From Pseudomonadota bacterium (GTDB lineage: Bacteria; Desulfobacterota; Desulfobulbia; Desulfobulbales; JAGXFP01): a stretch of DNA of 36,490 nucleotides. Shown here one piece after another: positions 5,230-22,911 of the stretch. The notes beneath the pieces are model-generated. The model did no database searches and had not been told where the DNA came from. It saw only the letters and a program-made list of their open reading frames with translations. Made by a program: the position numbers and the translations under genes. Position 1 is the stretch's first letter. Each line of letters begins with the position of its first letter. Where the stretch lies: contig JAHJAA010000079.1 of assembly GCA_018814305.1 (NCBI GenBank), forward strand, positions 74,130 through 110,619. Reading direction: 5' to 3'.

Positions 5230-6237
5230 ATGAAAAATACCAAAAAAATTCTTGTGACAGGTGCAGACGGGTTTATTGGGTCGCATTTGACTGAGTATCT
5301 GGTTCGACAGGGGTATCAGGTTAAGGCGTTTGTACTCTATAATTCTTTTAATTCGTGGGGGTGGCTTGATCAGTCTCCAGCTGAGATTAGAGAAAATATT
5401 GAGGTTTTTGCCGGTGATATTCGCGATCCCCATGGCGTGAAAGAGGCCATGCGAGGTTGTGATATTGTCCTTCATCTGGCGGCTCTCATCGCCATTCCTT
5501 ACTCCTATCATTCTCCTGCAACCTATGTCGACACCAATATCAAGGGGACTCTGAATGTGGTTCAGGCAGCTCGGGAACTTGAGGTCGAAAAGGTGGTTCA
5601 TACCTCCACCAGTGAAGTCTATGGAACCGCCAAATTTGTGCCGATTACAGAGGATCATCCCTTGCAGGGACAGTCTCCCTATTCCGCAAGTAAGATCGGG
5701 GCTGATCAAATTGCCATGTCGTATTACAATTCCTTTGGAACTCCTGTAGCCATAATACGCCCCTTTAATACTTATGGTCCACGTCAGTCAGCCCGGGCGG
5801 TGATCCCGACTGTTATTACTCAGATAGCTAATGGGAAAAGGGTTTTGAAATTGGGCTCAATGCATCCCACCAGGGATTTTAACTACGTTCTTGACACCGT
5901 AAAAGGATTTGAAGCCGTTGCCTTTTCCGATAAATCCGTCGGGGAGGTTATTAATATCGGGAGCAATTTTGAAGTTTCCATCGGTGAGACGGTTAACTTG
6001 ATTGCTGAAGTCATGGGAGTTGAGGTTGAAATTCGGACCGATGATCAGCGTCTTCGTCCGGAAAAAAGTGAAGTTGAACGATTATGGGCTGATAACTCAA
6101 AGGCTCGCCAACTTCTTGGATGGGAGCCTCGTTATGCCGGGATGGATGGTTTTAAACGTGGTTTGACCGAAACGGTCTCTTGGTTTGTTGATTCGAAGAA
6201 TCTAACTGCCTATAAAGCACATCTTTACAATATTTGA
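5230..6237 (+). CDS. legB: NAD-dependent 4,6-dehydratase of the legionaminic acid pathway
   Basis: The 335-residue extended SDR has the Rossmann motif GADGFIGSHL (11-20), TSTSEVYG (125-132) and the catalytic Tyr151-SAS-Lys155, with IRPFNTYGPRQ downstream, as in GDP/UDP-sugar 4,6-dehydratases. The length and the N-terminal NSFNSWGWLD segment match LegB, which makes the 4-keto-6-deoxy-GlcNAc nucleotide at the first committed step to legionaminate. It is directly followed, one base after the stop, by the aminotransferase that would use its product. The PtmE-type guanylyltransferase downstream suggests the substrate is GDP-GlcNAc rather than UDP-GlcNAc; that is inference from Campylobacter. Confidence 0.88.
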   Translation: MKNTKKILVTGADGFIGSHLTEYLVRQGYQVKAFVLYNSFNSWGWLDQSPAEIRENIEVFAGDIRDPHGVKEAMRGCDIVLHLAALIAIPYSYHSPATYVDTNIKGTLNVVQAARELEVEKVVHTSTSEVYGTAKFVPITEDHPLQGQSPYSASKIGADQIAMSYYNSFGTPVAIIRPFNTYGPRQSARAVIPTVITQIANGKRVLKLGSMHPTRDFNYVLDTVKGFEAVAFSDKSVGEVINIGSNFEVSIGETVNLIAEVMGVEVEIRTDDQRLRPEKSEVERLWADNSKARQLLGWEPRYAGMDGFKRGLTETVSWFVDSKNLTAYKAHLYNI

Positions 6238-6238
6238 A

Positions 6239-7426
6239 ATGACCAACCATTTTCCATACGAGGACATTGTTAAGGCGATCAAGAGTGTTCTCCCTGAGAA
6301 CCTGCCTGTAGTTCCCCTTCATGAACCGAATTTCAATGGGAATGAATGGGCTTATGTGAAAGAATGTCTTGATTCGGGTTGGGTCTCATCTGTCGGTGCG
6401 TATGTCGACCGGTTTGAGGATCTGCTGATCGAGTACACCGGCGTGAAACATGCCGTTGCTGTGGTGAATGGCACCGCCGCCCTGCATGTGTGTCTTCTGT
6501 TGGCAGGGGTGAAACCGGGAGACGAGGTTCTCGTGCCGACTCTCACCTTCGTTGCAACGGCTAATGCTGTGGTTTATTGTGGGGCTACTCCCCACTTTGT
6601 GGACAGTGCTATAAGTACTTTGGGTGTGGATCCAACAAAGCTTGATGAATATCTTCAAGAGACTGTGACGGTCAATCACGACGGATGTTATAATAAAGTA
6701 ACCGGTAGGCCGATCCGGGCTTTGGTTCCAATGCACACTTTTGGACACCCTGTTGATCTCGATGGTATCGTGGAGGTATGCAATAAGTATCGGCTCCTTT
6801 TGGTCGAAGATGCTGCCGAATCCCTCGGCTCTTTTTACAAAGAAAAACATACCGGTCATCACGGACTTTTGTCAGCGTTGAGCTTTAATGGAAACAAGGT
6901 GGTGACCTCAGGTGGTGGCGGTGCTATTCTGACCAATAATGAAGATCTTGGGCGGTTAGCAAAGCATTTAACCACCACGGCCCGGGTTGCTCATCCTTGG
7001 GAATTACGCCATGATCTCGTTGCCTATAATTATCGTATGCCAAATATCAATGCAGCCCTAGGGTGCGCCCAACTCGAACAACTTCCTTCCTTCATTACCC
7101 AAAAGCGTATTCTAGCAAAACGCTATCAAAAGGCCTTAGTATCGGTGAGTGGGGCCACCTTTTTTACGGAACCGAAATCGGCCAGGAGTAACTATTGGCT
7201 AAACACATTGTTGTTGGATCAAAACTTTGTCGGGCAAAGGGATAGCCTGCTCGAAATACTTGGATCGAATGGGGTCCAGGCCCGTCCGGCATGGACGCCC
7301 ATGCATCGTTTACCGATGTTCCAGGACTGCCCTCGGATGGATCTCTCTACCTCCGAGAATTTAGTGAGTCGTATTATCAATATCCCGAGTAGCGCTGTTT
7401 TGGGAGGGGATGTGCTCGATGCGTAA
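6239..7426 (+). CDS. legC: 4-keto-6-deoxy-GlcNAc nucleotide aminotransferase (DegT/DnrJ family)
   Basis: The 395-residue PLP enzyme has NGTAALHVCLLLAGV (78-91), VEDAAESLGS (189-198) and the Schiff-base Lys220 in FNGNKVVTSGGGG. These are characteristic of the LegC group within the DegT/DnrJ/EryC1 family. It transfers an amino group to C4 of the keto sugar produced by LegB, giving the 4-amino-4,6-dideoxy sugar that is then acetylated. The start lies one base after the legB stop, and the 3' end overlaps the next gene, so translation of the block is probably coupled. Confidence 0.88.
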   Translation: MTNHFPYEDIVKAIKSVLPENLPVVPLHEPNFNGNEWAYVKECLDSGWVSSVGAYVDRFEDLLIEYTGVKHAVAVVNGTAALHVCLLLAGVKPGDEVLVPTLTFVATANAVVYCGATPHFVDSAISTLGVDPTKLDEYLQETVTVNHDGCYNKVTGRPIRALVPMHTFGHPVDLDGIVEVCNKYRLLLVEDAAESLGSFYKEKHTGHHGLLSALSFNGNKVVTSGGGGAILTNNEDLGRLAKHLTTTARVAHPWELRHDLVAYNYRMPNINAALGCAQLEQLPSFITQKRILAKRYQKALVSVSGATFFTEPKSARSNYWLNTLLLDQNFVGQRDSLLEILGSNGVQARPAWTPMHRLPMFQDCPRMDLSTSENLVSRIINIPSSAVLGGDVLDA

Positions 7427-8570
7427 TATCTGCGTGGTAACGGGAAGCCGGGCTGAATATGGCCTGCTTGCTCCAGTGATGAGTGCCATCCGGGACGAGC
7501 CCCTTTTCCGTCTGCAGGTGATTGTCACGGGCATGCATCTTGCCCCTCAGTTTGGTTCAACCTGGCTCGAGATAGAGAAAGATGGATATTCTATTGATGC
7601 GAAGATCGACCTTGAATTGATCGAAGATACAGTATTGTCCGTAACCCGTTCTCTCGGGAGGGGAGTTATGGGATTTGCCGATGTGCTGGAAAGGCTCAGG
7701 CCTGATCTGGTTGTCATCCTGGGTGATCGCTATGAGATTCTTGCCGCTGCCCAGGCGGCCCTTATTGCGCGGATTCCTGTAGCACATATTGCTGGAGGTG
7801 ATACGACTGAGGGCGCCTTTGATGAGGCTATTCGACACAGTATCACCAAGATGGCACATCTCCATTTTGTAACCAATAAAGATGCAGCCCGCAGGGTTAG
7901 ACAATTGGGCGAAGATCCAGAGCATATTTATACTGTCGGAAGTCCTGGAATCGACGTGATCAGGAGGATCAAGCTCCTTCCCCGGGCAACTCTCGAACAG
8001 GAATTGGGCTTTGTTTTTCGGAAACGTAATGTCCTCGTGACCTTTCATCCTGCGACTCTGGACGAGCAATCGGCCGGAACACAGTTTCGGGAGCTTCTCA
8101 TGGCGCTCGACCGTTTGGGGGAGGGGGTTGGGGTTATCTTCACCCACCCCAATGCCGATCCTGATTCCCACACTATTATTGACCTAATCGGTGACTACAC
8201 CGCCTCGCATCCGCAGGCAAAAGATTTTACTTCGTTAGGGCAGGTTCGCTATTTGAGCATGATCGGCCAAATGGACGCAGTTGTAGGGAATTCTTCAAGT
8301 GGTCTCTATGAAGTCCCATCATTTCGAAAGCCGACAGTCAATATCGGAGATCGCCAAAAGGGTCGAAGTCAAGCTTCGTCGGTGATTAATTGCCGACCGG
8401 TGGCAAATGAGATCGTGGAGGCAGTGTTGACAGCCTTTGATATGGATTGTTCGGATGCGGTGAATCCTTTTGGGGAGGGGGGGAGCGCGCAGCGTATCGT
8501 TGCTGTCCTGAAAGGGATACCCGATTACAGGCAGCTTTTAAGAAAAAGATTTTTTGATTTGGTCCAATGA
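7419..8570 (+). CDS. legG: Hydrolysing nucleotide-sugar 2-epimerase (NeuC/LegG family)
   Basis: The 383-residue GT-B-fold enzyme starts RNICVVTGSRAEYGLL and carries LGDRYEILAA, HIAGGDTTEGAFDEAIRH, FTHPNADPDS and GNSSSGLYEVP, all hallmarks of NeuC/LegG. It removes the nucleotide and inverts C2 to yield 2,4-diacetamido-2,4,6-trideoxymannose. An in-frame ATG exists at 7410, but a strong GGGAGGGG site (7402-7409) is correctly spaced for the ATG at 7419, which overlaps the legC stop by 8 bases. The legB/legC neighbours argue for a legionaminate rather than sialate role. Confidence 0.88.
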   Translation: MRNICVVTGSRAEYGLLAPVMSAIRDEPLFRLQVIVTGMHLAPQFGSTWLEIEKDGYSIDAKIDLELIEDTVLSVTRSLGRGVMGFADVLERLRPDLVVILGDRYEILAAAQAALIARIPVAHIAGGDTTEGAFDEAIRHSITKMAHLHFVTNKDAARRVRQLGEDPEHIYTVGSPGIDVIRRIKLLPRATLEQELGFVFRKRNVLVTFHPATLDEQSAGTQFRELLMALDRLGEGVGVIFTHPNADPDSHTIIDLIGDYTASHPQAKDFTSLGQVRYLSMIGQMDAVVGNSSSGLYEVPSFRKPTVNIGDRQKGRSQASSVINCRPVANEIVEAVLTAFDMDCSDAVNPFGEGGSAQRIVAVLKGIPDYRQLLRKRFFDLVQ

Positions 8571-9649
8571 AAACGGAACGCACTTATATTATTGCCGAAG
8601 CTGGGGTCAATCATAACGGGTCGCTGGATATGGCCCTCCGTCTTATCGACGTTGCGGTGGAGGCCGGCGCGGATGCGGTTAAATTTCAGACCTTTCGGGC
8701 TGAATCGTTGGTGAACAGATCGGCCTCCAAGGCGGAATATCAGATAAAAGCCACTGGATCAACTGAATCACAGTATCAGATGCTTAAAAATCTTGAGTTG
8801 GACGATTCTTTGCATTTGGCCCTTGATGCCCATTGTCGTGTCCAGGGCATCCAATTCCTTTCAACACCTTTCGACGAGGAAAGTCTCTTTTTTCTGGTCC
8901 AACAGATTGGTGTACCTCTAATCAAAGTGTCTTCAGGTGAAATAACCAATGGCCCGCTACTCCTTGCAGCAGCCGGCACGGGAAGGCCAATAATCCTCTC
9001 GACCGGGATGAGTACCTTGCAGGAAGTCAATGAGGCTCTTGAGGTGATGGCCTTTGGCTATTTGGAAAAAGATCATAAGCCCTCACAGAGTGCCTTCCGG
9101 TTGGCATTTAAATCTGAATCAGGTCAGCAGGTACTTAAAGAAAAGGTAACGCTTCTCCACTGCACTACCGAGTACCCTGCCCCGATCACGGCAGTGAATC
9201 TCAGGGCCATGGATAGCATGCGTGAGGCGTTTGGACTGGCAGTTGGATTTTCTGATCATACGTCGGGAATGTCTGTCGCCATTGCTGCTGTGGCGCGAGG
9301 CGCCTCAATTATCGAAAAACACTTTACTTTGGACCGTGAGCTTCCCGGACCTGACCACCGGGCATCTCTCGAGCCTCATGAATTACGCGCCATGGTGGGT
9401 GCCATTCGCGAGGTGGAACTGGCTCTTGGTTCAGGGGTTAAGGAGCCTTCGGTCTGCGAAATGAGCAATCTTGTTGTCGCTCGGCGGAGTCTTGTGGCGA
9501 GTTGTGATATCGAAAGAGATGAAATATTTACCCGGAATAATGTTACGAGTAAACGACCTGGGATCGGTATATCTCCAATGCTCTATTGGGATGTGTTGGG
9601 ACGGAAGGCTCCCCATAATTTTAGTCAAGATGAGGCCATTGAGACATGA
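8567..9649 (+). CDS. legI: N,N'-diacetyllegionaminic acid synthase (NeuB family)
   Basis: The 360-residue protein opens with YIIAEAGVNHNGSLDMAL, then AGADAVKFQTF, KVSSGEITNGPLLLAAAGTG, LSTGMST and GFSDHTSG, the order seen in NeuB-type TIM-barrel synthases. A C-terminal antifreeze-like SAF domain spans about 300-355 (ARRSLVASCDIERDEIF, then KRPGIGISP). It condenses phosphoenolpyruvate with the trideoxy-mannose product of LegG to form legionaminic acid. The ATG overlaps the legG stop (ATGA). NeuB-family members acting on Neu5Ac, Pse or Leg look alike; the choice of Leg rests on the surrounding genes. Confidence 0.9.
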   Translation: MKTERTYIIAEAGVNHNGSLDMALRLIDVAVEAGADAVKFQTFRAESLVNRSASKAEYQIKATGSTESQYQMLKNLELDDSLHLALDAHCRVQGIQFLSTPFDEESLFFLVQQIGVPLIKVSSGEITNGPLLLAAAGTGRPIILSTGMSTLQEVNEALEVMAFGYLEKDHKPSQSAFRLAFKSESGQQVLKEKVTLLHCTTEYPAPITAVNLRAMDSMREAFGLAVGFSDHTSGMSVAIAAVARGASIIEKHFTLDRELPGPDHRASLEPHELRAMVGAIREVELALGSGVKEPSVCEMSNLVVARRSLVASCDIERDEIFTRNNVTSKRPGIGISPMLYWDVLGRKAPHNFSQDEAIET

Positions 9650-10284
9650 GCCAGTCTGTGATCATTATCGGGGGAGGTGGGCATGCCAAGGTGCTAATCG
9701 ATGCCTTACGACTTTCCGGAGTAGATATCCTTGGAATCACGGATGCCGATTCGACGAAGCATGCTCACCGGATCGGCGGAGTTCGTGTTCTTGGTGACGA
9801 TTCGATCATTTCTCAATATGGCTCCTCGGAAGTCCTTCTCGTCAATGGAATTGGATCAATAAACCTCCCGTTGAGGCGTGCGGACCTCTTTGAGAGATAT
9901 AAAGCTTTGGGATATTGTTTTACATCCGTCATTCATCCCTCTGCTATCATCGCCACAGATGTTTCGTTGGGCGAAGGGGTTCAGGTTATGGCCGGGGCAG
10001 TCATTCAGCCAGGTTGTTCAATCGGTGGTAATTGTCTCATCAATACCGGCACAACGATAGACCACGACTGCTGGATCGGTGATCATACCCATCTTTCACC
10101 CGGTGTTACCCTTTGCGGGAATGTCACGATGAAAGGAAGGTCGTTTGTCGGCGCCGGAGCTATTGTAATCCAGGGGAAAAACATTGGCAGTGCTGGACTT
10201 GTTGCCGCTGGAGCTTTGGTCTTAGAAGATGTTTTAGATGGGGCGGTTGTTATGGGAGTCCCGGCGAATGAGGTGGAAAAATGA
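9646..10284 (+). CDS. legH: NeuD/PglD-type sugar acetyltransferase, likely LegH
   Basis: The 212-residue protein has an N-terminal Rossmann-like nucleotide-sugar-binding domain (IIIGGGGHAKVLIDAL, residues 5-20) and a left-handed beta-helix of hexapeptide repeats from about residue 95. That helix includes IDHDCWIGDHTHLSPG with the family's catalytic histidine region. This architecture is that of PglD/NeuD/LegH enzymes, which acetylate the C4 amino group of the 4-amino-4,6-dideoxy nucleotide sugar with acetyl-CoA. Position inside the leg block, with ATGA overlaps at both ends, favours LegH; NeuD-like O-acetylation is the alternative. Confidence 0.78.
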   Translation: MSQSVIIIGGGGHAKVLIDALRLSGVDILGITDADSTKHAHRIGGVRVLGDDSIISQYGSSEVLLVNGIGSINLPLRRADLFERYKALGYCFTSVIHPSAIIATDVSLGEGVQVMAGAVIQPGCSIGGNCLINTGTTIDHDCWIGDHTHLSPGVTLCGNVTMKGRSFVGAGAIVIQGKNIGSAGLVAAGALVLEDVLDGAVVMGVPANEVEK

Positions 10285-11327
10285 AAGACTGGAAACGGAC
10301 ATTGGTCTCTCCAAAGACGTCCATCAGAGACACTATTCGACAGATCACTGAAAGTGCTCTCCAGATAGCCTTGGTTACCAATGCTGAAAATAATTTGCTG
10401 GGCACTGTGACCGATGGGGATATTCGCATGGGGATATTGAAAGGTTTAGACCTCAGTGAGCCGGTGGAAAAGATCATGCAAAGATGTCCGTATGTTTGCA
10501 GAAAGGGGGAGGGGCGTGAGGCAATTCTTGCCACTATGAAACTTAAGCGTCTGCATCATATGCCCATCGTGGATGACAATGAAATTATTGTTGGCCTTGA
10601 ACTGATTGATGATCTTGTGGGAGCCCCTCCCCGAGATAATATTGCGATTTTGATGGCAGGAGGACTTGGCAGCCGTCTTCATCCCTTGACTGAAACTTGC
10701 CCGAAGCCTTTGCTTCAGGTAGGGGACCGCCCGATTCTTGAAACAATCCTGCTGAATCTCATCGACAATGGAATTAGACGGTTTTATATCTCGGTTAATT
10801 ACATGGCTCAGATGGTTATGGAGCATTTTGGTGATGGAAGTAACTGGGGGGTTGAGATTCGGTATCTTCAGGAGAAACAGAAGTTGGGAACTGCAGGGGC
10901 TCTCAGTCTCTTAACCGAGCGGCCGGAATCACCAATTCTCGTTATGAATGCGGACCTTCTTACCAAGGTGAATTTCGGTGATCTCCTCGATTTCCACACC
11001 ATGCACCATTCTAAAGCAACAATGTGTGTCCGGGAATATAACCATCAGATTCCATACGGGGTAGTCAAGATTGACCAGCATCATTTTCTTGGGATTAAAG
11101 AAAAGCCGGTAAAACGTTATTTTGTTAACGCCGGGATCTATGTCCTTGAATCTGAGGTGATCGATAATATTCCCCCAGATACATATTTCGACATGCCCCA
11201 ATTGTTTGAGTCTCTCCAGCAGCAGAGTCCGGAAATTGCAGTATTCCCAATTCGGGAATACTGGATCGACATTGGTCAGATGAATGATCTGATCCGTGCA
11301 ACTAACGATTTTAGAAGTGAATTTTAA
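10281..11327 (+). CDS. ptmE: CBS-domain sugar-1-phosphate nucleotidyltransferase, PtmE-like (probable GlcN-1-P guanylyltransferase)
   Basis: The 348-residue protein has two parts: a CBS-domain pair at about residues 5-115 (GTVTDGDIRMGIL, then HHMPIVDDNEIIVGL), and a nucleotidyltransferase domain from 120 with the signature LMAGGLGSRLHPLT (124-137), CPKPLLQVGDRP and VMNADLLT. The CBS plus NTP-transferase fusion is that of Campylobacter PtmE, which makes GDP-glucosamine at the head of the GDP-linked legionaminate route. Its presence here implies this organism uses GDP-linked precursors as well. ATGA overlap with the acetyltransferase gene upstream. Nucleotide preference cannot be read from the sequence alone. 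Confidence 0.78.
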   Translation: MKDWKRTLVSPKTSIRDTIRQITESALQIALVTNAENNLLGTVTDGDIRMGILKGLDLSEPVEKIMQRCPYVCRKGEGREAILATMKLKRLHHMPIVDDNEIIVGLELIDDLVGAPPRDNIAILMAGGLGSRLHPLTETCPKPLLQVGDRPILETILLNLIDNGIRRFYISVNYMAQMVMEHFGDGSNWGVEIRYLQEKQKLGTAGALSLLTERPESPILVMNADLLTKVNFGDLLDFHTMHHSKATMCVREYNHQIPYGVVKIDQHHFLGIKEKPVKRYFVNAGIYVLESEVIDNIPPDTYFDMPQLFESLQQQSPEIAVFPIREYWIDIGQMNDLIRATNDFRSEF

Positions 11328-11330
11328 CCC

Positions 11331-12047
11331 ATGTACAAAGATAAAACATTTTTGGTGATTATTCCTGCTCGGGGAGGCAGTAAAGGGCTTCCAGGGAAGA
11401 ATATTCGACCTCTATGTGGGAATCCGCTGATTGCCTGGAGCATTGAGTCTGGACGGCATTCAATGCATGTCGATGAAGTAATGGTCTCAACCGACAGTGA
11501 GGAGATAGCTGAAATTGCTCGACGTTTCGGGGCATCAGTTCCGTTTCTTAGGCCGATTGAACTGGCCCAGGATAAGACTCCGACATTTGATGCGGTTTTG
11601 CATACCATTAATTACTATCGAGAAATTGAAAAAAGAGGGTTTGATTATATCGTACTTCTGGAGCCGACTTCACCCTTACGTGAAAGTGATGACATCGATT
11701 CGATGATAGAGGCTGTTGTTGACCAGGCAGAACGTTATGACGCGATTACCAGTATTGGTGAAGTACACGAGCATCCATCAATTATGAAACGCATTGTCGA
11801 TCATTCTCTTGAACCGTTTTGTAAAGAGCTCAGCCAGGAAACCCGCCGACAGGATAATTCTCCGGCTTATTTTCCCTATGGTGTTGCTTATATTGTAAAA
11901 ACTGAGATCCTCCTGAAGGAAAAAACTTTTTATCCCGAGCGGAGCACCTACTATTTGATTCAGCGATATCAAGCCTATGAAATTGATGATCTTTATGATT
12001 TTTTGTGTGTTGAGGTGATTATGCAACATCGAAAGGAAAAAATATGA
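11331..12047 (+). CDS. legF: CMP-legionaminic acid synthetase (acylneuraminate cytidylyltransferase family)
   Basis: The 238-residue protein has the CMP-sialate synthetase P-loop-like motif IPARGGSKGLPGKNIRPL (residues 10-27), VSTDSEEIAEIA and LLEPTSPLR, and a normal length for the family. It activates the nonulosonic acid with CTP to CMP-legionaminate, the donor for glycosyltransferases. It starts three bases after the ptmE-like gene and ends overlapping the next one, closing a complete Leg set (LegB, C, H, G, I, F plus PtmE). A sialic acid or pseudaminate substrate is possible by sequence alone, but not by context. Confidence 0.87.
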   Translation: MYKDKTFLVIIPARGGSKGLPGKNIRPLCGNPLIAWSIESGRHSMHVDEVMVSTDSEEIAEIARRFGASVPFLRPIELAQDKTPTFDAVLHTINYYREIEKRGFDYIVLLEPTSPLRESDDIDSMIEAVVDQAERYDAITSIGEVHEHPSIMKRIVDHSLEPFCKELSQETRRQDNSPAYFPYGVAYIVKTEILLKEKTFYPERSTYYLIQRYQAYEIDDLYDFLCVEVIMQHRKEKI

Positions 12048-13039
12048 AATTTCTTGTTATTGGTCTTGGCTCAATGGGAAAGCGACGGATTCGGTGTCTT
12101 AAATCTTTGGGGTATGACGATATAACAGGGTATGATCCTCGCGAAGACCGTCGTTTGGAGACTCAAAAACTCTATCAGGTCAAGACCCTTGATAAACTTC
12201 ATAATTCGGTATGTTCAAGGTTTGATGTTCATATTATTTCGGTTCCTCCGGACTGTCATCTTGAGTATATGAAAACGGCTGTTGATTTGGGTATACCGGC
12301 TTTTGTTGAGGCGAGTGTTCTCCTTGACGGACTTGAAGAGCTTGACTCTATGGCCAAATCCAGAAAAGTGCTGATTGCACCATCCTGTACCCTGCGTTTC
12401 CATCCGGCTGTGAAAATAATCAAAAAACTTATAAAGAGTGAGCAATACGGGAAATTCACCAATTTTTCGTATCATTCAGGTCAGTATCTTCCTGACTGGC
12501 ACCCCTGGGAAAAGGTAACTGAGTATTATGTTTCTAATCCTTCAACGGGTGGGGCCCGTGAGATCGTACCTTTTGAACTGACATGGATTGTGGATTTGAT
12601 CGGATTCCCGGCGGAGGTGACCGGCCTTTTCGGTCGGACCATGGATGTTGGGGCCGAAATAACTGATACCTATGCAGTTGCACTGAAATTTTCCCAGGGC
12701 TTCGGAACTATGTTGGTTGATGTCGTGGCTCGACATGCAACGAGGAACCTCATTTTAAATATGGAGAAGGGACAAATTGCCTGGCGGTGGGATGACCCTC
12801 ATGTAAAGGTCTTTGATGCTGCATCAGGGGAATGGGTTTTATTTGCTTATCAAGTTTCTCCTGGTTATGACGGATATAATAAAAACATAATCGAAGAGAT
12901 GTATATTGAAGAGCTTGGTTCTTTTATAGGGGCGGTCAATGGGAGGGAGATCTATCCCAATACCCTGGCAGATGATATCGCGGTATTGAAACAACTCATC
13001 CAGGCCGAAACTTCAAATCCTCCCAGATTGGAGAAATGA
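12044..13039 (+). CDS. Gfo/Idh/MocA-fold protein with atypical active site (PtmF-like candidate)
   Basis: The 331-residue protein has an N-terminal Rossmann motif (VIGLGSMGKRRIR, 5-17) and a C-terminal alpha/beta domain of the Gfo/Idh/MocA type. The catalytic EKP tripeptide reads Glu89-Ala90-Ser91, and the later His region reads AREIVPFELTWIVD (171-184) with no histidine. It therefore lacks the two residues normally used for hydride-transfer acid/base chemistry. The second family member in this window (22997-24061) keeps both. ATGA overlap with legF ties it to the Leg block; Campylobacter Leg loci also carry accessory oxidoreductases. It may be a divergent dehydrogenase, a structural partner of the SDR or aminotransferase next to it, or an enzyme of new specificity. 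Confidence 0.7.
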   Translation: MKFLVIGLGSMGKRRIRCLKSLGYDDITGYDPREDRRLETQKLYQVKTLDKLHNSVCSRFDVHIISVPPDCHLEYMKTAVDLGIPAFVEASVLLDGLEELDSMAKSRKVLIAPSCTLRFHPAVKIIKKLIKSEQYGKFTNFSYHSGQYLPDWHPWEKVTEYYVSNPSTGGAREIVPFELTWIVDLIGFPAEVTGLFGRTMDVGAEITDTYAVALKFSQGFGTMLVDVVARHATRNLILNMEKGQIAWRWDDPHVKVFDAASGEWVLFAYQVSPGYDGYNKNIIEEMYIEELGSFIGAVNGREIYPNTLADDIAVLKQLIQAETSNPPRLEK

Positions 13040-14355
13040 TTCATATGGGGAAATCGCAGGAACTTTATCAAAAAGCAAAAAAACTCATCCCGGGAGGAAC
13101 CCAGCTGCTCTCAAAGCGACCTGAAATGTTTCTCCCTGATCTTTGGCCGGCCTATTATAGTAAGGCAAAGGGTTGTGAAATTTGGGATCTTGATGATATC
13201 AAGTATTTCGACATGGTTACCATGGGGATTGGTGCATGTATACTCGGCTACGCTGATGATGATGTGAATTTTGCGGTGAAGAAAGCGGTAGATAATGGGA
13301 ATATGTGCTTACTTAATGCCCCGGAAGAAGTCGAATTGGCAGAAGTGCTTTGCAATCTTCATCCTTGGGCCTCGATGGTCAGGTACACCCGAAGCGGTGG
13401 GGAAGCAATGGCAGTCGCAGTGCGTATTGCCAGGGCTTTTACACAGAAGGATATTGTTCTTTTCTGTGGTTATCACGGGTGGCATGACTGGTATCTCGCT
13501 GCAAATTTAGGCAAAGAAACTGCCCTTGATGGCCATCTCCTCCCTGGGCTTGAACCTCGAGGGGTCCCTCGTGCACTCACTGGGACTGCGTACCCTTTTA
13601 TTTATAATGATATTGAAGGATTTCTTCGCCTCATTAAGCAACACGCAGGACGTGTGGGGGTTGTTGTCCTTGAAACCATCCGTAATCAACCACCCACCCC
13701 TGAATTTCTGGCTACACTCAGGGCTGTAACCCAGAAGAACGGCATTGTTTTTGTCGTCGATGAAATTACTGCGGGATGGAGGATGAACTTGGGCGGATCG
13801 CATCTTCTCTATGATGTGAAACCTGATATTGCTGTTTTTGGAAAAGCAATGGGTAATGGTTATCCAATGGGGGCCATTATTGGTACATCTGAAGTCATGT
13901 CGGCCGCCCAGGAGAGTTTTATAAGTAGTACCTATTGGACAGAAAGAATAGGTCCTGTCGCAGCCCTTGCCACAATTAAAAAATTGCAGAATCGATCAGT
14001 GCCCGCTCACTTATGTGACATTGGGAAAAGGATTCAAGAGGGGTGGCGACAAATTTCAAAAGGACATCAACTGGGCATTAACATTTCAGGAATTCTTCCC
14101 CTTGGGCATTTTAGTTTTGACCATGCACAACCACTGGTGCTTAAGACCCTTTTTACTCAAGAAATGCTGACCAGAGGATTTTTGGCGAGTACCGTATTTT
14201 ATGCATCGTTGGCCCACTCCTATGAGGTAGTCGACCAATACCTCAATACTGCTGACGAGGTATTTGGATTCATCGCCAAAGCCGTTGCTACAGGTCAACC
14301 GGAAAAGCACCTCAAGAGTTCTGTCTGTCATGCCGGGTTTCGGCGACTTGCCTGA
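13036..14355 (+). CDS. Class III aminotransferase (glutamate-1-semialdehyde aminomutase-like)
   Basis: The 439-residue fold-type I PLP enzyme has LIPGGTQLLSKRP near 17-29, RYTRSGGEAMAVAVRIAR (116-133), YHGWHDW (146-152), the cofactor-binding Asp242 in VDEITAGWR and the Schiff-base Lys270 in FGKAMGNGYP. It is closest in pattern to HemL, but no haem genes are near and it is embedded in sugar-nucleotide genes, so a role in transaminating a keto-sugar or a small activated acid is more likely. The frame opens at 13036 (ATGA overlap with the previous gene). The ATG at 13045 is better spaced from ttggag and may be the true start. Confidence 0.75.
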   Translation: MIHMGKSQELYQKAKKLIPGGTQLLSKRPEMFLPDLWPAYYSKAKGCEIWDLDDIKYFDMVTMGIGACILGYADDDVNFAVKKAVDNGNMCLLNAPEEVELAEVLCNLHPWASMVRYTRSGGEAMAVAVRIARAFTQKDIVLFCGYHGWHDWYLAANLGKETALDGHLLPGLEPRGVPRALTGTAYPFIYNDIEGFLRLIKQHAGRVGVVVLETIRNQPPTPEFLATLRAVTQKNGIVFVVDEITAGWRMNLGGSHLLYDVKPDIAVFGKAMGNGYPMGAIIGTSEVMSAAQESFISSTYWTERIGPVAALATIKKLQNRSVPAHLCDIGKRIQEGWRQISKGHQLGINISGILPLGHFSFDHAQPLVLKTLFTQEMLTRGFLASTVFYASLAHSYEVVDQYLNTADEVFGFIAKAVATGQPEKHLKSSVCHAGFRRLA

Positions 14356-14376
14356 AAAAATGGGGACAATCAAGGT

Positions 14377-15147
14377 ATGTTGAAAGATAAAGTTGTCATC
14401 GTTACAGGAGGGGCTGGATTACTTGGGAAGGCCTTTTTGAAAGGGATCGCCAGGCAAAGAGGGGTCGGTATTATTGCCGACATCAATAGTGACCTCGGTC
14501 ATGAAGCAATTTTATTGATCCAACAGGAAGTCCCCCATGCCCGAGTTGATTTAATTACCGTTGATATTACGTCAAAAGAATCAGTAAGAGAAATGATCAA
14601 GGAAGTCAGGGGAAAACATGGCAAAATTGATGCTCTTGTTAATAATGCCTATCCCCGAAATCAGAATTTTGGCAGACGATTTGAGGATGTTGAATACGAA
14701 GATTTTTGTGATAATGTCTCTAGGCATCTTGGGGGGTATTTTCTCGTTGCCCAACAGATTGCCGAATATTTTAAAGACAACGGAGGAGGCTCAATCATAA
14801 ATCTTGCCTCAATCTATGGTGCCATGGCTCCACGCTTTAAAATTTATAGAGAGACCTCAATGACCATGCCGGTTGAATATGCGGCTATTAAATCGGCGAT
14901 TATTCAGCTCACAAGATATATCGCAAGATACTATCAAGGCTGCGGGATTCATGTGAACGCCATAAGCCCTGGTGGAATCTTAGACAACCAGCCTGATCGG
15001 TTTATAGAATCGTACAACAGTCATTGTCTTACCAAGGGCATGTTGGGAGAGAATGATATTGTCGGCACACTTCTGTTCCTTCTTTCCGATTCTTCCAGAT
15101 ATATTAATGGACAAAATATCATTGTTGATGATGGTTTCAGCCTGTAG
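14377..15147 (+). CDS. Short-chain dehydrogenase/reductase, PtmA-like
   Basis: The 256-residue classical SDR has TGGAGLLGKAF (10-20) for cofactor binding, LVNNAYPRNQNFG in the NNAG position, INLASIYG with the catalytic serine and YAAIK as the YxxxK catalytic pair. The NNAYPR and PVEYAAIKSAI features recall PtmA of Campylobacter flagellin glycosylation loci, where it acts early in legionaminate precursor supply or modification. Ribosome binding site aaggt. It lies 21 bp after the aminotransferase, in the same direction. Substrate is not determinable from sequence. Confidence 0.75.
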   Translation: MLKDKVVIVTGGAGLLGKAFLKGIARQRGVGIIADINSDLGHEAILLIQQEVPHARVDLITVDITSKESVREMIKEVRGKHGKIDALVNNAYPRNQNFGRRFEDVEYEDFCDNVSRHLGGYFLVAQQIAEYFKDNGGGSIINLASIYGAMAPRFKIYRETSMTMPVEYAAIKSAIIQLTRYIARYYQGCGIHVNAISPGGILDNQPDRFIESYNSHCLTKGMLGENDIVGTLLFLLSDSSRYINGQNIIVDDGFSL

Positions 15148-15183: not shown

Positions 15184-15960
15184 ATGAGCGACCACGAAAA
15201 AGAGTATTTCAACACCCCGGAATATATTGCTTATCTCAAGCGGAACTGTGAACTTATTGATCGTGACACCGGAAACCGCGATGAGACCTTCACCAGTCCC
15301 CATATGGATATTATCATTAAATATACTGACCAACTGGGAATCGAACCAGGACGACAAATGCTTGAGATAGGTTGTGGTTTGGGCCGTTTAGTCGATTATC
15401 TAGGAAAACATTACGGGATAGATATCAGTGGCATTGATGTCTCTGACGAGACCTGTAAATTGGCCATGGAGCGCCTTTCTCAATCTTCGGGGGAAATAAA
15501 AGTCGGTTCGGCAGAAAAAATACCTTTTCCCGATTCCTCGTTTGATTATGTCCTTTGCTGGGGAGTTTTTGACCTTACTGATCAAGGCTACGCCATCGCT
15601 GAAATGCTCAGAGTATTGAAGGTCGGCGGTAAATTACTTTTGACAGGAAAAAACAATGAGTTCATGCCCGATGACGAGGATGCCCAAATAGCCGAGATTA
15701 AGTCCAGGGAAAAAAACATTCCCAATCACTACACCGATTATAATGCCCTCAAACAATTGGTCGAGTCCAATGGCGCAAATCTGGCTCTTGAGCACTTTTT
15801 CCTCAGGAGAGGGGATTTCATGGCGGGCAGATATGTAATCAATCAACCGGCTCAATTTCAAGAATATTGCGTCATAGTCCAGAAAGAGTCGATTGAGCTT
15901 CCGGTAATCAATGAGATTTCGGACTCGTACTCAAAGACCTGGAGGCAGAAGCATGGCTAA
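15184..15960 (+). CDS. Class I SAM-dependent methyltransferase
   Basis: The 258-residue protein has Methyltransf_11-type motifs: motif I MLEIGCGLGRL (59-69), the acidic end of strand 2 at Asp85 (SGIDVSD), SAEKIPFPDSSFDYVLCWGV and MLRVLKVGGKLLLTG. It should transfer a methyl group from SAM to an O, N or C atom. Within this locus a sugar or sugar-nucleotide acceptor is likely. Campylobacter legionaminate loci also contain a methyltransferase (PtmH) that decorates the nonulosonate, but orthology is not claimed. The last codons overlap the start of the next gene by 8 bases. Confidence 0.8.
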   Translation: MSDHEKEYFNTPEYIAYLKRNCELIDRDTGNRDETFTSPHMDIIIKYTDQLGIEPGRQMLEIGCGLGRLVDYLGKHYGIDISGIDVSDETCKLAMERLSQSSGEIKVGSAEKIPFPDSSFDYVLCWGVFDLTDQGYAIAEMLRVLKVGGKLLLTGKNNEFMPDDEDAQIAEIKSREKNIPNHYTDYNALKQLVESNGANLALEHFFLRRGDFMAGRYVINQPAQFQEYCVIVQKESIELPVINEISDSYSKTWRQKHG

Positions 15961-17158
15961 AAGACTCTATGTCGTTCCAATATTGAACACAATGGGGCCG
16001 GTGACTGATGCTCGTCACACAGATCTCTTAAATACGTGGGAAGAAGTCGATCGTGCAACAGCATCCTATTTTACCGACCGTTTTCGTAATACGATAATTG
16101 ACCAGCAAGGCCGACCGGTATCTATCTCATGGTTCCCAGTAAGTTGGTCTGGATTTGAGACGAATCCCGTAGAACGGGATTTTGGCTGGTTCACCATCTA
16201 TGATCATATCAACCAACGCTGGAAGGCTGATATGGACCGGTTCGGCGACGGAATTTATTGGATGTATAATCATCCTGACAAATCGGGGGTTGGGAATGCC
16301 TGGGGACTTGATTGGCTGCATAACTGTCATTATTTGAAAATTCTTAACAGGATGGTTGTACAGCGTGGGTTTTTTCCTGGTGTTGTCGAAATACCCACAG
16401 CCAATAATCATTCCTCTCATTTTGTTGAACAGTATTTCCCTTTCGACATCAGTAACAGAAATTCGCCCTTTATCAACTGGGACAATATAGAGGCGGATGG
16501 TAGAAAAACCAGAGAAATCCTCCAGTGGGCTGATGCCCCGAATAATTGGATTCCTTATCATCCAAGTGAATCGAATCATCAATGTCCCGGGGAAATGAAG
16601 CATGCTATCTTTCGACTTTTAGATATCAAAACCAGAATTATGTATTTTCCCCAGGACGAGGTGATTAAGGCCTTTGACGATTGCCGAGCCGGGCATGACG
16701 TGGTCATCGCTGGATATGAGCATGATTTCCGTGATCGCTGCGATGCTGTAATCGACTTGTTTCTTGAGCCGATCAAAATTGTTGCTCGGGATTATCCTGA
16801 TGTAGAAGTTATCAATGCTAATCTGCAGACCGCTGCAATTGAATGCTTGCATTTAAATAACGCTAAATCCGCAGGGCCCAGATTTTCTGTTGAGCTGAAG
16901 AAAGATTATGTCTGCATTCAAAGTGATACTGATCTTTTTGGTCCTACTCCCTATGTTGCAATCGAAGATTTTTCTACCGGTGAGATTCTTTCCTGTAATC
17001 CTTTTGTGGCGGGATATAGGTCGTGGGGGATCCAACTGAATTTTATACCCGGGCAAGGAAAATTGGGAATTGCCGGTTTTTCGCGAGCCGGGATACAGAG
17101 AGTGAGTTGTTATTTAATTAATGATCTGTCTTTTCAACTGATTGATGAGGGTAATTAA
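15953..17158 (+). CDS. Unrecognised 401-residue protein of the glycan locus
   Basis: I do not recognise a family with confidence. The start at 15953 follows a good GGAGG site (15941-15945) and overlaps the methyltransferase stop; the frame is open further upstream but without a better site. There is no signal peptide and no membrane segment. The sequence is rich in Trp, Tyr, His and Asp: PILNTMGPVTDARHT near the N-terminus, then WFPVSWSGF, GDGIYWMYNHPDKSG, AWGLDWLHNCHY, EIPTANNHSSHF and PFDISNRNS. This loosely recalls barrel-fold polysaccharide deacetylases or hydrolases, but no NodB metal triad is evident. A beta-rich C-terminal part follows from about residue 300. Tight coupling to the methyltransferase and to a B12 radical SAM gene suggests a sugar-modifying role. 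Confidence 0.6.
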   Translation: MAKRLYVVPILNTMGPVTDARHTDLLNTWEEVDRATASYFTDRFRNTIIDQQGRPVSISWFPVSWSGFETNPVERDFGWFTIYDHINQRWKADMDRFGDGIYWMYNHPDKSGVGNAWGLDWLHNCHYLKILNRMVVQRGFFPGVVEIPTANNHSSHFVEQYFPFDISNRNSPFINWDNIEADGRKTREILQWADAPNNWIPYHPSESNHQCPGEMKHAIFRLLDIKTRIMYFPQDEVIKAFDDCRAGHDVVIAGYEHDFRDRCDAVIDLFLEPIKIVARDYPDVEVINANLQTAAIECLHLNNAKSAGPRFSVELKKDYVCIQSDTDLFGPTPYVAIEDFSTGEILSCNPFVAGYRSWGIQLNFIPGQGKLGIAGFSRAGIQRVSCYLINDLSFQLIDEGN

Positions 17159-18546
17159 TGAAGATTCTTCTAGTCGTATACGATAACGATTCCTATATTC
17201 ATTGGTTTCCTCAGGGGCTCGCTTATATTGCAGGAACCCTTGTTAAACATGGGTATGAAGTTGAGATTTACAATCAGGATGTTCATCATTATTCTAACGA
17301 TCATTTAACCCATTATCTTGATGAAAAGCATTTTGATGTTGTGGGAATTGGAATCATCGCAGGTTATTATCAATACCTTCAACTCTTAGGGATTTCAGAG
17401 GCGGTTAATCGTTCGAAGCATCGTCCTCTCTATATCCTCGGTGGTCATGGCCCTTCTCCGGAGCCTGAGTTTTTCCTTGGGAAGACTGAAGCTGACCTGG
17501 TGGTCCTTGGTGAGGGTGAGGAAACTATAATTGATCTTCTCGATGCTATCCAAAAGCATCGTCCGCTGTCTACTGTTCCTGGCATAGCTTATCGTTCTGA
17601 AGGACAAGTCATTATTAATGAACGGCGGCCACTCATTTCGGATATCAACACCATTCCATTGCCGGCCTACTCATTGTTCCCCATAGATTATTATAAACTT
17701 ATCCGTATGCCCCATAACGTGAACAGCGATTTTGTCATGCCGGTATTGTCGGGGAGAGGATGTACTTTTAATTGTGCCTTCTGCTACCGTATGGATGAAG
17801 GCTTCCGACCGCGAAGTAGTGAATCAATCATTGAAGAAATCCGTTTGTTGAAAGCTGATTACGGGATTACCCATGTTAGTTTTACCGATGAACTGTTGAT
17901 GTCTTCGGTGGAACGGACCGATCAACTCTGCCATGATTTTATGAATGCCGGTCTCAATGTGAAATGGGACTGTAACGGTAGACTTAATTATGCAAAACCG
18001 GATCTCCTTAAACTCATGAGAAAGGCAGGTTGTGTCTTTATCAATTATGGGATTGAGTCTCTGGATGATCTGGTTTTGAAGAAAATGAATAAGGCCCTTT
18101 CCACAAAACAGATTATTAAGGGGGTTGAGGCGACCATCGCTGTTGGAATAACTCCGGGATTGAATGTCCTGTTCGGGAATATTGGTGACACCACGGAGAC
18201 ATTGAGGAAGGGGGTAGAATTTACGATGAAATATGATGATGGGGCCTATATGCGGACAATCAGACCGGTGACTCCGTATCCCGGTTCCCCTCTTTACTAC
18301 CATGCTATCGAAAAGGGTCTTCTAAAAGACTGTGAGGATTTTTATACCAATAAACATCTCAATTCAGATCTGATTGCCGTCAACTTTACGGAATTGACTG
18401 ATGAGGAATTTTATCAGGCTCTTTATGAAGCCAATTCCACCCTGTTGACCAATTACTACCATAAAAAACTCGAATCCATGATTGAGCAAACCAGAAAGCT
18501 CTATTTCGAGCGTGATGCCTCATTCCGAGGATATCGACAGACGTAA
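17158..18546 (+). CDS. B12-binding-domain radical SAM protein
   Basis: The 462-residue protein has an N-terminal cobalamin-binding-like Rossmann domain (about 1-135; ILLVVYDNDSYIHWFPQGLA, YILGGHGPSPEP, VVLGEGEETI), though the canonical DxHxxG ligand motif is not obvious. A radical SAM barrel follows, with the cluster motif Cys202-x3-Cys206-x2-Cys209 in GRGCTFNCAFCYR. This is the class B radical SAM layout, whose members methylate unactivated carbons or rearrange rings. Its start overlaps the stop of the unknown gene (TAATG). In this setting C-methylation or another difficult modification of a sugar is plausible, but the substrate is unknown. Confidence 0.82.
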   Translation: MKILLVVYDNDSYIHWFPQGLAYIAGTLVKHGYEVEIYNQDVHHYSNDHLTHYLDEKHFDVVGIGIIAGYYQYLQLLGISEAVNRSKHRPLYILGGHGPSPEPEFFLGKTEADLVVLGEGEETIIDLLDAIQKHRPLSTVPGIAYRSEGQVIINERRPLISDINTIPLPAYSLFPIDYYKLIRMPHNVNSDFVMPVLSGRGCTFNCAFCYRMDEGFRPRSSESIIEEIRLLKADYGITHVSFTDELLMSSVERTDQLCHDFMNAGLNVKWDCNGRLNYAKPDLLKLMRKAGCVFINYGIESLDDLVLKKMNKALSTKQIIKGVEATIAVGITPGLNVLFGNIGDTTETLRKGVEFTMKYDDGAYMRTIRPVTPYPGSPLYYHAIEKGLLKDCEDFYTNKHLNSDLIAVNFTELTDEEFYQALYEANSTLLTNYYHKKLESMIEQTRKLYFERDASFRGYRQT

Positions 18547-18615: not shown

Positions 18616-20157
18616 ATGCAGGCATCAGCAATCATGGACGTGCTCAACGAGATCGAGGTTCGATTCCCGGTTGATAAATGGCTCGTTAACAGGATCCATA
18701 TCTGGCCGCTCCTTCGGGTGCATCTGGGGGTCATGCTCTTCCATGTAATGGCTCCACAGGCGGCTCAACGACGTTCTCGTCTAGCCTCCGGCCTTTCTCT
18801 TTGCGGCGGGTTTCTTAAACATGCATTTTCCTCCATCGCTGATTCAAGCCATAATGCGCACTGTGATCATAAAGCTGATGTAGTCATGTTGAGTGACGGC
18901 ATTTCATTTTCTTCTATCGATGGGCAATGGTATGAGAAATTTTGTGATCCGATCCGAGATGCCCTGTCTTTGTCTGACGTATCATCGTTTCTTATGACCC
19001 CCCAGAATCGTTACTATCAGCCGCGTCACTCTCCTTCAATGTTCATTCATCCGGCCTTGACGACCATTTTACTGAAGAACATGTTTCGTACATCCGATCG
19101 AGATATATATAAGGCACTACCAAATTATGAGGAATTCCTGGCCTTTCTTGGGGAGAAATTTCCTCAGATGCCACTCCTGGATTCCCTTTGGTTGTCGCGT
19201 CAGATCAGGAGTTTGGAAGATATCTCCAGATATTATACTAAGATACTCAAAAAGCTTAATCCTGCAGTTGCATTTATCGTCAGTTATTATTGGACTGAGG
19301 GGATGGCCTTTATTCATGCCTGCCGACAATACGGGATTCCGGTTATTGACATTCAGCATGGCGCCCAAGGCCCTTTGCATAAGGCGTACGGTAGGTGGAT
19401 AAAGATTCCTCAAGATGGATATGAACTATTGCCTTCGCATTTTTATTGCTGGAGTGAGTACGAGGCGGAAACTATTGGGGATTGGAATAGTCAATCTCCT
19501 GGAGCCCACATCCCGATGATTGTCGGGAATCGTTGGCTTTCTTTTTGGAAAGATTCGAATAACACCGCGATCAAACGATACGATTCGCAACTCAGTCAAT
19601 TGAAAGATTCAATCCCCTCGACGTATCATCTCCTTGTAACCTTGCAACCGGAATTTTCCGGGCCGAAATTTTTGGAACCACTCTTTAAAGCCATCTCTTT
19701 GATGGGTGACTCTTTCCATTGGTGGTTTCGCCTTCATCCCATGATGATGGATAAGCGGCATCTTATCAAGAAACTTCTCAGTCAACAAATTGCGGGGCGA
19801 TTTGACTTGGATTGGTCATCTGATATTCCCTTGCCGGCTTTATTGCGTCAGGTTGATGTGCATTTGACATTCTGTTCAACGGTAATAACTGAGGCCGTTT
19901 TTTTTGGTGTGCCGTCCGTTATCTTGGATCAATTCGGGGTGGAATTTTTTCCGAAAGAGATGGAATCAGGATGGGCTGTCGCAGCGTTCTCCACTGAGGA
20001 GATAACTGAGGCCATTAAACGACAAATATTGGTGAAGGTGGATCCCTTGGGCGATATGGAAATGAGCGGAGAGTCTTTTGTGGACCCTATTTCGGAAGTC
20101 GTTTCAATGATCAGGAATATTAGGGCACAAAAAGAACTTAATGCAATCGATCGATAA
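18616..20157 (+). CDS. GT-B-like glycosyltransferase, possible nonulosonate transferase
   Basis: The 513-residue soluble protein resembles capsule-type GT-B transferases and related CMP-sugar enzymes. IPVIDIQHGAQGPLHKAY (241-258) has the His-Gly seen at the inter-domain cleft, WWFRLHPMMM lies near 364-373, and STVITEAVFFGVPSVI near 421-436 is the donor-nucleotide-side motif with its conserved Ser-Thr and Glu. The family cannot be named surely, but CMP-Kdo/sialate transferases share this pattern, and a CMP-legionaminate donor is made upstream. A second ATG at 18634 is possible. No membrane segments. It ends block B and precedes the flippase. Confidence 0.6.
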   Translation: MQASAIMDVLNEIEVRFPVDKWLVNRIHIWPLLRVHLGVMLFHVMAPQAAQRRSRLASGLSLCGGFLKHAFSSIADSSHNAHCDHKADVVMLSDGISFSSIDGQWYEKFCDPIRDALSLSDVSSFLMTPQNRYYQPRHSPSMFIHPALTTILLKNMFRTSDRDIYKALPNYEEFLAFLGEKFPQMPLLDSLWLSRQIRSLEDISRYYTKILKKLNPAVAFIVSYYWTEGMAFIHACRQYGIPVIDIQHGAQGPLHKAYGRWIKIPQDGYELLPSHFYCWSEYEAETIGDWNSQSPGAHIPMIVGNRWLSFWKDSNNTAIKRYDSQLSQLKDSIPSTYHLLVTLQPEFSGPKFLEPLFKAISLMGDSFHWWFRLHPMMMDKRHLIKKLLSQQIAGRFDLDWSSDIPLPALLRQVDVHLTFCSTVITEAVFFGVPSVILDQFGVEFFPKEMESGWAVAAFSTEEITEAIKRQILVKVDPLGDMEMSGESFVDPISEVVSMIRNIRAQKELNAIDR

Positions 20158-21538: not shown

Positions 21539-22153
21539 ATGATAATAATTGTTAATTATAATATGGGGAATGTCGGGTCTATCCTGAATATGTTGAAAAA
21601 GGTTGGCGCAGAGGGGATCATTTCATCGGATCCGGAAGTGATCCTTCGAGCCGAGAAGCTGATCCTGCCCGGTGTTGGTGCTTTTGATCAGGGGGTGGCA
21701 AACCTGGAGAATTTGGGTTTGATTCCAATTTTGAATGAAAAGGTGCTGGTGCAAGCTACACCGATCATTGGTATTTGCCTGGGAATGCAACTCATGACCG
21801 AAAGCAGTGAGGAGGGGAAAAATTCCGGTCTTGGTTGGGTTAAAGGGCGAACGGTCCGTTTTGATCGCCAAAGGACTAAGCAGCTCAAGATTCCTCATAT
21901 GGGTTGGGATGTTATCATTCCACGGAAGGAAAGTGATTTAATGGATGGTCTGAGTCATGACGCACGGTTTTATTTTGTTCATTCATATCATGTTCTGTGC
22001 GAAAATACAGCCGATGTTCTGACCACTACCACCTATGGGTATGAATTTGCATCGTCCTTCCAGCATGGAAATATTTTCGGTGTTCAATTCCACCCCGAAA
22101 AAAGTCATAAATACGGCATGAAGTTACTCAAGAACTTTGTGGAGTATTTATGA
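21539..22153 (+). CDS. hisH: HisH-type glutamine amidotransferase of an amidino-sugar pathway
   Basis: The 204-residue class I glutamine amidotransferase has Cys80 in GICLGMQL and the His185-x-Glu187 pair in GVQFHPEKS, so the glutaminase triad is intact. It releases ammonia that its HisF-like partner channels. In this setting (next to HisF, with a WbpG/PseA-type amidotransferase downstream and no other his genes) it most likely feeds the acetamidino-forming enzyme rather than histidine synthesis. Ribosome binding site aggaagc; the stop overlaps the hisF start. Confidence 0.88.
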   Translation: MIIIVNYNMGNVGSILNMLKKVGAEGIISSDPEVILRAEKLILPGVGAFDQGVANLENLGLIPILNEKVLVQATPIIGICLGMQLMTESSEEGKNSGLGWVKGRTVRFDRQRTKQLKIPHMGWDVIIPRKESDLMDGLSHDARFYFVHSYHVLCENTADVLTTTTYGYEFASSFQHGNIFGVQFHPEKSHKYGMKLLKNFVEYL

Positions 22154-22911
22154 GGCCTCGTATTATTCCTGTTTTGCTCGTGCAGGATGGCGGTCTTTAT
22201 AAAACCGTTAACTTCCGAAATGGAAACTATTTAGGTGATCCGATTAATGCCATCCGGCTTTTTAACGAAATGGAAGTGGATGAAATCATTGTCCTTGATA
22301 TATCTGCGACCAGAGAAGGAAGAGGACCGGATCTTGGGTTCATTGAAGATATTGCCAGCGAGGCATTTATGCCGTTTTGTTATGGTGGTGGAATTAGCAA
22401 TATTAATCAGGTTCGGAGGATATTCCAGGTCGGTGTTGAGAAGGTCGCGATGAATAGGAGTCTGCTTGAGGGTAACAGGTTGATAGCAGAATGCGCTGAT
22501 GAGTTCGGTAGCCAGAGTATTGTAGGTGCGATTGATATCAAAACGACTCTATTGGGAAAAGAAAAGGTGTATGATTATATCAAAGGGAAAACAGTTCAAG
22601 TGACTATTGAAGACCATATTAATGGCCTGGAAAATGATGGGGCTGGAGAAATTTTTCTTAATTTTGTCGATAATGATGGGGGTATGAAAGGGTATAATCT
22701 GAAATTGATCGAGAGGATCAGTAAGATGATTTCTTTACCACTCATTGTCTGCGGCGGAGCCGGTAATTTGGTGCATATGCACGAAGCAATTCAAGCTGGA
22801 GCGGATGCCGCTGCCGCTGGAAGTCTTTTTGTTTATAAAGGGAAACAGAGAGGAGTTTTGATCAATTATCCTTCTCAATTGGAGCTTGAAGCAATCCTTG
22901 GGAGATGTTGA
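22150..22911 (+). CDS. hisF: HisF paralogue, probable ammonia channel for sugar amidination
   Basis: The 253-residue TIM barrel aligns well with HisF (PRIIPVLLVQDGG at the N-terminus, FCYGGGISN near 76-84, GAIDIK, VCGGAGN and DAAAAGSLF). The first catalytic aspartate of true HisF (CLDVKDG) is Leu10 here (VLLVQDG), while the second (AID) is kept. Loss of that residue should abolish imidazole-glycerol-phosphate cyclisation and leaves an ammonia-conducting barrel, as in WbpG-associated HisF2. Translation is coupled to hisH by an ATGA overlap. Confidence 0.88.
   Translation: MRPRIIPVLLVQDGGLYKTVNFRNGNYLGDPINAIRLFNEMEVDEIIVLDISATREGRGPDLGFIEDIASEAFMPFCYGGGISNINQVRRIFQVGVEKVAMNRSLLEGNRLIAECADEFGSQSIVGAIDIKTTLLGKEKVYDYIKGKTVQVTIEDHINGLENDGAGEIFLNFVDNDGGMKGYNLKLIERISKMISLPLIVCGGAGNLVHMHEAIQAGADAAAAGSLFVYKGKQRGVLINYPSQLELEAILGRC

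Follow-up and report, generated by a model that had tools for sequence, protein, structure and literature searches.

A predicted NodB-fold protein family of nonulosonic acid gene clusters, with a probably derived branch in which the active site is rewritten

NodB proteins carry their metal-binding and catalytic residues in five motifs, namely the Asp pair of MT1, the His pair of MT2, the Arg of MT3, the Asp of MT4 and the His of MT5 (PMC10967932). According to the same paper, CE4 NodB enzymes deacetylate polysaccharides, PuuE allantoinase has a NodB barrel which was reported to be non-metal-dependent and to keep MT4 and MT5, and EcCDA, a NodB protein with losses similar to those described below, was judged probably inactive (PMC10967932). 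In the atypical peptidoglycan deacetylase HP0310 (3qbu), which has no signal peptide (PMC3084791), the five active residues are intact and metal can be bound (PMC3084791, PMC10967932). In the titles and abstract openings of the literature searched, neither a nonulosonic acid (NulO) deacylase nor a NodB protein in NulO clusters was recognised.

The gene described here, named the NodB-fold NulO-cluster protein gene, is an open reading frame of 401 aa at 15953..17158 on the + strand of a 36,490-nucleotide stretch of DNA (contig JAHJAA010000079.1), which was analysed as a whole and is called the window. Based on NCBIfam and Pfam names, we read the island in the window as a legionaminic-acid-type (nonulosonate, NulO) cluster. 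Its pathway genes (5230..15147, + strand) are those of LegB, LegC, NeuC, NeuB, NeuD, a CBS-nucleotidyltransferase, a CMP-NulO-type cytidylyltransferase (nearest PseF), a Gfo/Idh protein, a class III aminotransferase and a PtmA-like SDR, and the distance from neuB to the 401-aa gene is 6.5 kb. The class III aminotransferase (13036-14355) resembles glutamate-1-semialdehyde aminomutase and adjoins the Gfo/Idh oxidoreductase. The island also contains a module for acetamidino modification, made up of HisH, AglZ/HisF2 and WbuX amidotransferase (21539-22911 and 27075-28214), and it contains glycosyltransferases as well. The two partner genes overlapping the 401-aa gene, which were named by Pfam/NCBIfam and are both below the NCBIfam cut-off, encode a class I SAM methyltransferase (15184..15960, + strand), homologues of which accompany both orthologues, and a B12-binding radical SAM protein (17158..18546, + strand). 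Since N-methylation of legionaminic acid has been reported in Legionella (PMC13306086), a methyltransferase in a NulO cluster is unremarkable in itself. A 513-aa ORF 3' of the radical SAM gene (18616-20157) had no Pfam/NCBIfam match at 1e-5, and a 29% match to it lies near the family gene in locus L071.

A first-pass annotation had proposed a 401-residue ORF at 15953-17158 which overlaps both neighbours, and these coordinates and overlaps were verified. The gene starts within the methyltransferase ORF (15184-15960), with an 8-base overlap from its ATG onwards, and the TAA (17156-17158) has one base in common with the radical-SAM ATG at 17158. Judged from these overlaps, co-translation of the methyltransferase, the 401-aa gene and the radical SAM gene is plausible. 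The longest possible ORF starts at 15911 and encodes 415 aa; the start at 15953 was preferred because both close homologues begin at a Met matching 15953. Purine-rich GGAGG and GAGGG stretches are found 5' of the starts of the 401-aa gene and the radical SAM gene, and the GGAGG at 15941..15945 (+ strand), which lies within the methyltransferase ORF, probably serves, judged by its sequence, as the ribosome-binding site of the start at 15953. Compared with two orthologues, pN/pS was 0.21/0.81 and 0.34/0.88, pN and pS being quoted alone because synonymous sites were saturated. The conserved start, the ribosome-binding-like stretches and the low pN/pS together support a functional gene, and the 401-aa ORF is thus a real gene under purifying selection. 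It is present as a single copy in its own genome. Its GC content (0.435) is ordinary compared with the window (0.452), so that composition is uninformative on recent transfer.

The annotation had also called the protein family-less, which holds: Pfam and NCBIfam gave zero matches, PHROG gave one match at E 0.3, and the best E against PDB sequences was 0.61. For 13 family members, nothing significant was found in Pfam or NCBIfam (best E 0.034 and 0.035), and PF01522 (Polysacc_deac_1) matched neither the 401-aa protein nor these 13 members. When family alignments were compared by hhalign with 27 Polysacc_deac_1 domains, the probability reached 0.6% with the alignment of all 27 family rows and 1.1% with a three-row alignment. 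The domains were collected from genomes of the window's class, where 30 loci gave 28 with an ORF and finally 27, L106 being dropped since it was without the motif. The wider family is thus undescribed in the libraries searched, and since a sequence-level link to NodB was not found, its kinship to NodB is drawn from the fold alone.

A pattern scan of genome contigs from 84,980 species gave two close relatives. One is from a Desulfobacteraceae MAG (L002, 70% identity, truncated by the contig end), where a homologous methyltransferase overlaps the family gene, and the other is from a Schekmanbacteria MAG (L003, 52% identity), where the methyltransferase homologue is upstream with one ORF between. 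In the Schekmanbacteria MAG (L076, 7962-9488), the methyltransferase and family genes are separated by a 509-aa ORF. In the phylum, a profile built from the three sequences detected the family in 2 of 395 genomes, one being the genome of the window and the other G523 (E 8.1e-38). In the class of G523, 10 of 297 genomes were matched, and the identical 10 were obtained from 348 with another profile; the class of G636 gave 4 of 291 (G636 among them), the family of G636 one of eight (G636 itself), the phylum of G637 one of eight (G637), and the window's own class one of 249, the window genome itself. Three weak matches at E 0.003-0.008 also appeared in the class search; two were inspected, both lay in methyltransferase-like ORFs and were rejected, and the third (L005) has stops in frame. 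Viral members were reached with three alignments on 13 distinct IMG/VR contigs (L033-L046, 37-236 kb), and a search of named phages and plasmids gave zero matches. The distant members have 21-29% identity to the 401-aa protein, and profile homology covers the greater part of its length. Such a sporadic distribution would fit horizontally moving surface-glycan genes.

The AlphaFold2 model calculated from 27 family sequences had a pLDDT of 91.8 and a pTM of 0.91, while a model from four sequences only was poor (pLDDT 52.6) and was not used. In this model, residues 1-303 (15953..16861, + strand) are confidently predicted to form a distorted seven-strand (beta/alpha) barrel of the NodB/polysaccharide-deacetylase type. 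Its strands lie near residues 4-13, 59-63, 98-104, 144-146, 164-168, 218-221 and 250-257, an order which was taken from DSSP, with strand 98-104 partly inferred. Residues 305-398 (16865..17146, + strand) are predicted by the model and Foldseek to be a C-terminal beta-sandwich, and we take the FN3/Ig-like Foldseek matches as matches of this part. The best VIA-align match was 3lm3 (Z 16.4, 244 aligned residues, 3.6 A), a putative glycoside hydrolase/deacetylase (BDI_3119) according to its title, which has 10% identity to the window protein. It was followed by HP0310 (15.2), 1z7a (14.7), 3s6o (14.5), 3rxz (14.3), PuuE (13.6), Agd3 (13.2) and chitin deacetylase (12.5), and unrelated barrels scored from about 8.6 (phosphotriesterase), compared with up to 16.4 for NodB proteins. 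Foldseek agreed weakly, with 3s6o of the polysaccharide deacetylase family as top row (E 8.3e-4, TM 0.39), and gave no convincing match in the viral library. Structure prediction had been suggested in the first-pass annotation as a check for a (beta/alpha) barrel, and a NodB-type barrel was obtained. Its idea of a sugar enzyme with a hydrolase/deacetylase-type barrel is likewise supported for the fold and for the legionaminic-acid-type context; the substrate and the reaction given below are what we infer.

To place the catalytic residues, motif positions on the model were assigned by strand order after the alignment had been inspected. On this assignment, the D-x-E on strand 1, the H-x-H on strand 3, the R on strand 4, the acid at 165 on strand 5 and H257 on strand 7 of the family would occupy the NodB places, and the NodB-like set D-x-E, H-x-H, R and H is kept in 24 of the 24 other aligned members. 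The branch formed by the window protein together with L002 and L003 (52-70% identity, under purifying selection) differs at nearly all of them. At the motif 1 place, N12-T13-M14 (15986..15994; this and the following coordinates are on the + strand), all three have N and M/L where the other 24 rows have D/E at 12/14. M104-Y105-N106 (16262..16270) stands at the motif 2 place, which is H-x-H in 24/24 other rows, and E146 (16388..16390) at the motif 3 place is E/E/Q in the branch and Arg in all others. D165 on strand 5 (16445..16447), the candidate motif 4 acid, is acidic in 18 of the 19 rows of a 19-row alignment. H217 (16601..16603) is His in 3/3 branch rows and Arg in 24/24 others, while H257-D258 at the end of strand 7 (16721..16726), which contains the motif 5 His, is invariant in 27/27 rows. 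Among the 23 positions that are invariant in the other 24 rows, six are changed in all three branch rows: D12N, E14M/L, H104M, H106N, R146E/Q and R217H. Five of the six assigned catalytic positions are among these changes (Fisher P 0.001, with positions assigned post hoc), and H257 is the only one that survives. Furthermore, H9, D64, E150 and D208 are nearly invariant elsewhere and altered in most or all of the three rows. The motifs YWMYNHPDKSG, HNCHY and NHSSHF, from which a metal active site had earlier been suggested, are all present in the protein, but this suggestion is not supported for the branch, because YWMYNHPDKSG is the site where H-x-H became M-x-N and the first-strand D-x-E reads N-x-M in the window protein.

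The three-member clade has a support of 100/100 and is led by a branch of 2.3 changes per site, and it stayed isolated in the same way when the long row L023 was left out of the tree. The tree is unrooted and without an outgroup; loss of the metal site on the three-member branch is the simpler polarity since the NodB-like residues of the remaining rows are also those of the superfamily, and this would be the direction of change. One explanation of the long branch and of the five replaced catalytic residues is that the branch lost catalysis and survives as a partner of the methyltransferase and the radical SAM protein that binds NulO, acts as a scaffold or has a regulatory role. A non-enzyme is possible because EcCDA, with comparable losses, was called probably inactive (PMC10967932). 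This explanation is nevertheless rather doubtful, since most of the replacements are identical in all three members, His257-Asp258 was kept, and new His/Cys positions were fixed. The latter (H107, H123, C125, H126, H209 and H217) are invariant in the branch and found in at most 3 of the 24 other rows. Their conservation in the alignment makes them candidate residues of a new site but does not demonstrate that such a site exists. A relocated active site, i.e. a new metal or Cys/His centre of these six residues in the same barrel with a non-hydrolytic reaction, would account for their invariance and rarity, but it is drawn from three sequences and appears quite improbable.

Among the described NodB proteins, the window protein resembles PuuE allantoinase (3cl6) and 1z7a/3s6o of the NodB1.2 subclass, with which it has the NodB barrel in common (Z 13.6-14.7). 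In these proteins, the MT1 acids and one MT2 His are also missing and the MT5 His is kept (PMC10967932). The identity is only about 11%, however, and the window protein has the extra C-terminal beta-sandwich, it has lost the second MT2 His and the MT3 Arg in addition, and its gene is located in a NulO cluster and not in a purine catabolism context as for PuuE. HP0310 has the same barrel fold and likewise no signal peptide (PMC3084791), but the full set of five active residues present in HP0310 is not retained in the window protein. The CE4 polysaccharide deacetylases (PF01522) have the barrel fold and the motif order along the strands in common with the window protein, and the MT5 His is present in it, whereas no profile match was found and the residues of motifs 1-3 are replaced. 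The motif spacing of the family (D-x-E, H-x-H) also differs from that of CE4.

The family gene is closely associated with NeuB. NeuB (PF03102) was found within 10 kb of the family gene in 15 of 16 genomes and at 26 kb in the sixteenth, compared with 0.27 expected under random placement (P ~8e-27), a lenient null since glycan genes cluster and the family gene lives in polysaccharide islands. Among 28 loci compared with the window genes, a NeuB match occurred in 25 (13 of 15 bacterial and 12 of 13 viral, several of the viral contigs being close copies). On the 13 IMG/VR contigs, NeuB (12/13) and cytidylyltransferase-like genes are located beside the family genes, suggesting phage-borne NulO synthesis. 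The trio of the window recurs in a different order in L046 (5096-7975), where a radical SAM-like ORF (assigned by eye from its Cys motif), the family gene and a methyltransferase homologue are consecutive. In L073 (7646-8959, - strand), a 25% homologue of the window B12 radical SAM protein, apparently split across two ORFs, comes directly after the family gene.

For 43 neighbouring genes from 22 loci, the commonest Pfam groups were methyltransferases (7) and cytidylyltransferases (6), and three were sulfotransferases. The sulfotransferases, together with the glycosyltransferases of the window island and the deacetylation of polysaccharides by CE4 NodB enzymes (PMC10967932), could mean that the substrate of the family is not NulO itself but the assembled glycan or a different sugar of the island. 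The cytidylyltransferases and the recurrence of NeuB in both bacteria and viral contigs make this unlikely, as does the lack of an export signal. In 27/27 rows, the 19-residue hydropathy maximum over the first 40 windows was at most 0.87, with start codons of several relatives placed manually near the first conserved strand and some rows thus a few residues shorter. Since a hydrophobic N-terminus is lacking in all rows, the protein would be cytoplasmic and a small-molecule substrate is suggested; the neighbour genes point to NulO or CMP-NulO.

Our preferred reading, to which we give a probability of about 0.5, is that the window protein is a cytoplasmic NulO-tailoring enzyme of NodB fold whose metal site was lost and whose function changed. 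The fold, family, cluster context, residue replacement and purifying selection behind it were computed, and metal binding in the wider family, metal loss in the window branch and the reaction of the window protein are what these suggest. In the wider family, a D-x-E/H-x-H metal site with the Arg and the last-strand His would probably serve the hydrolysis of an amide or ester bond, such as one that attaches an N- or O-acyl group to nonulosonic acids of the legionaminic-acid type or to their CMP-activated forms. In the window branch, the metal ligands, the presumed catalytic base and the Arg would all have been replaced while the barrel and the final His were kept. Most likely, the window protein would then act independently of this metal on a related NulO, which may be methylated, and its step would be linked in series to that of the co-translated methyltransferase and perhaps also to that of the B12 radical SAM enzyme. 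Work without a metal is proposed by analogy, because PuuE allantoinase is metal-free in the same superfamily. A changed function is favoured over decay since the replacements are conserved across two phyla. A more specific version can be offered only tentatively: the site of a metal-dependent deacylase was rebuilt for metal-free tailoring of an undescribed methylated NulO, coupled to the methyltransferase and the B12 radical SAM enzyme, and the relatives with a metal site are dedicated NulO deacylases that are also carried by phages.

Bacteria carry NulO sugars on their surfaces and flagella, and to our knowledge many of the enzymes that tailor them are unknown. A family which has no Pfam/NCBIfam model and whose genes accompany NeuB both in bacteria of two phyla and on viral contigs provides concrete targets. 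The window protein belongs to a derived branch of this new NodB-fold family with a rewritten active site, and its function would be the tailoring proposed above. The pair of branches, one with the presumed metal site kept and the other with it erased, is a compact natural experiment that may show in what way the chemistry of a metallo-deacylase fold changes.
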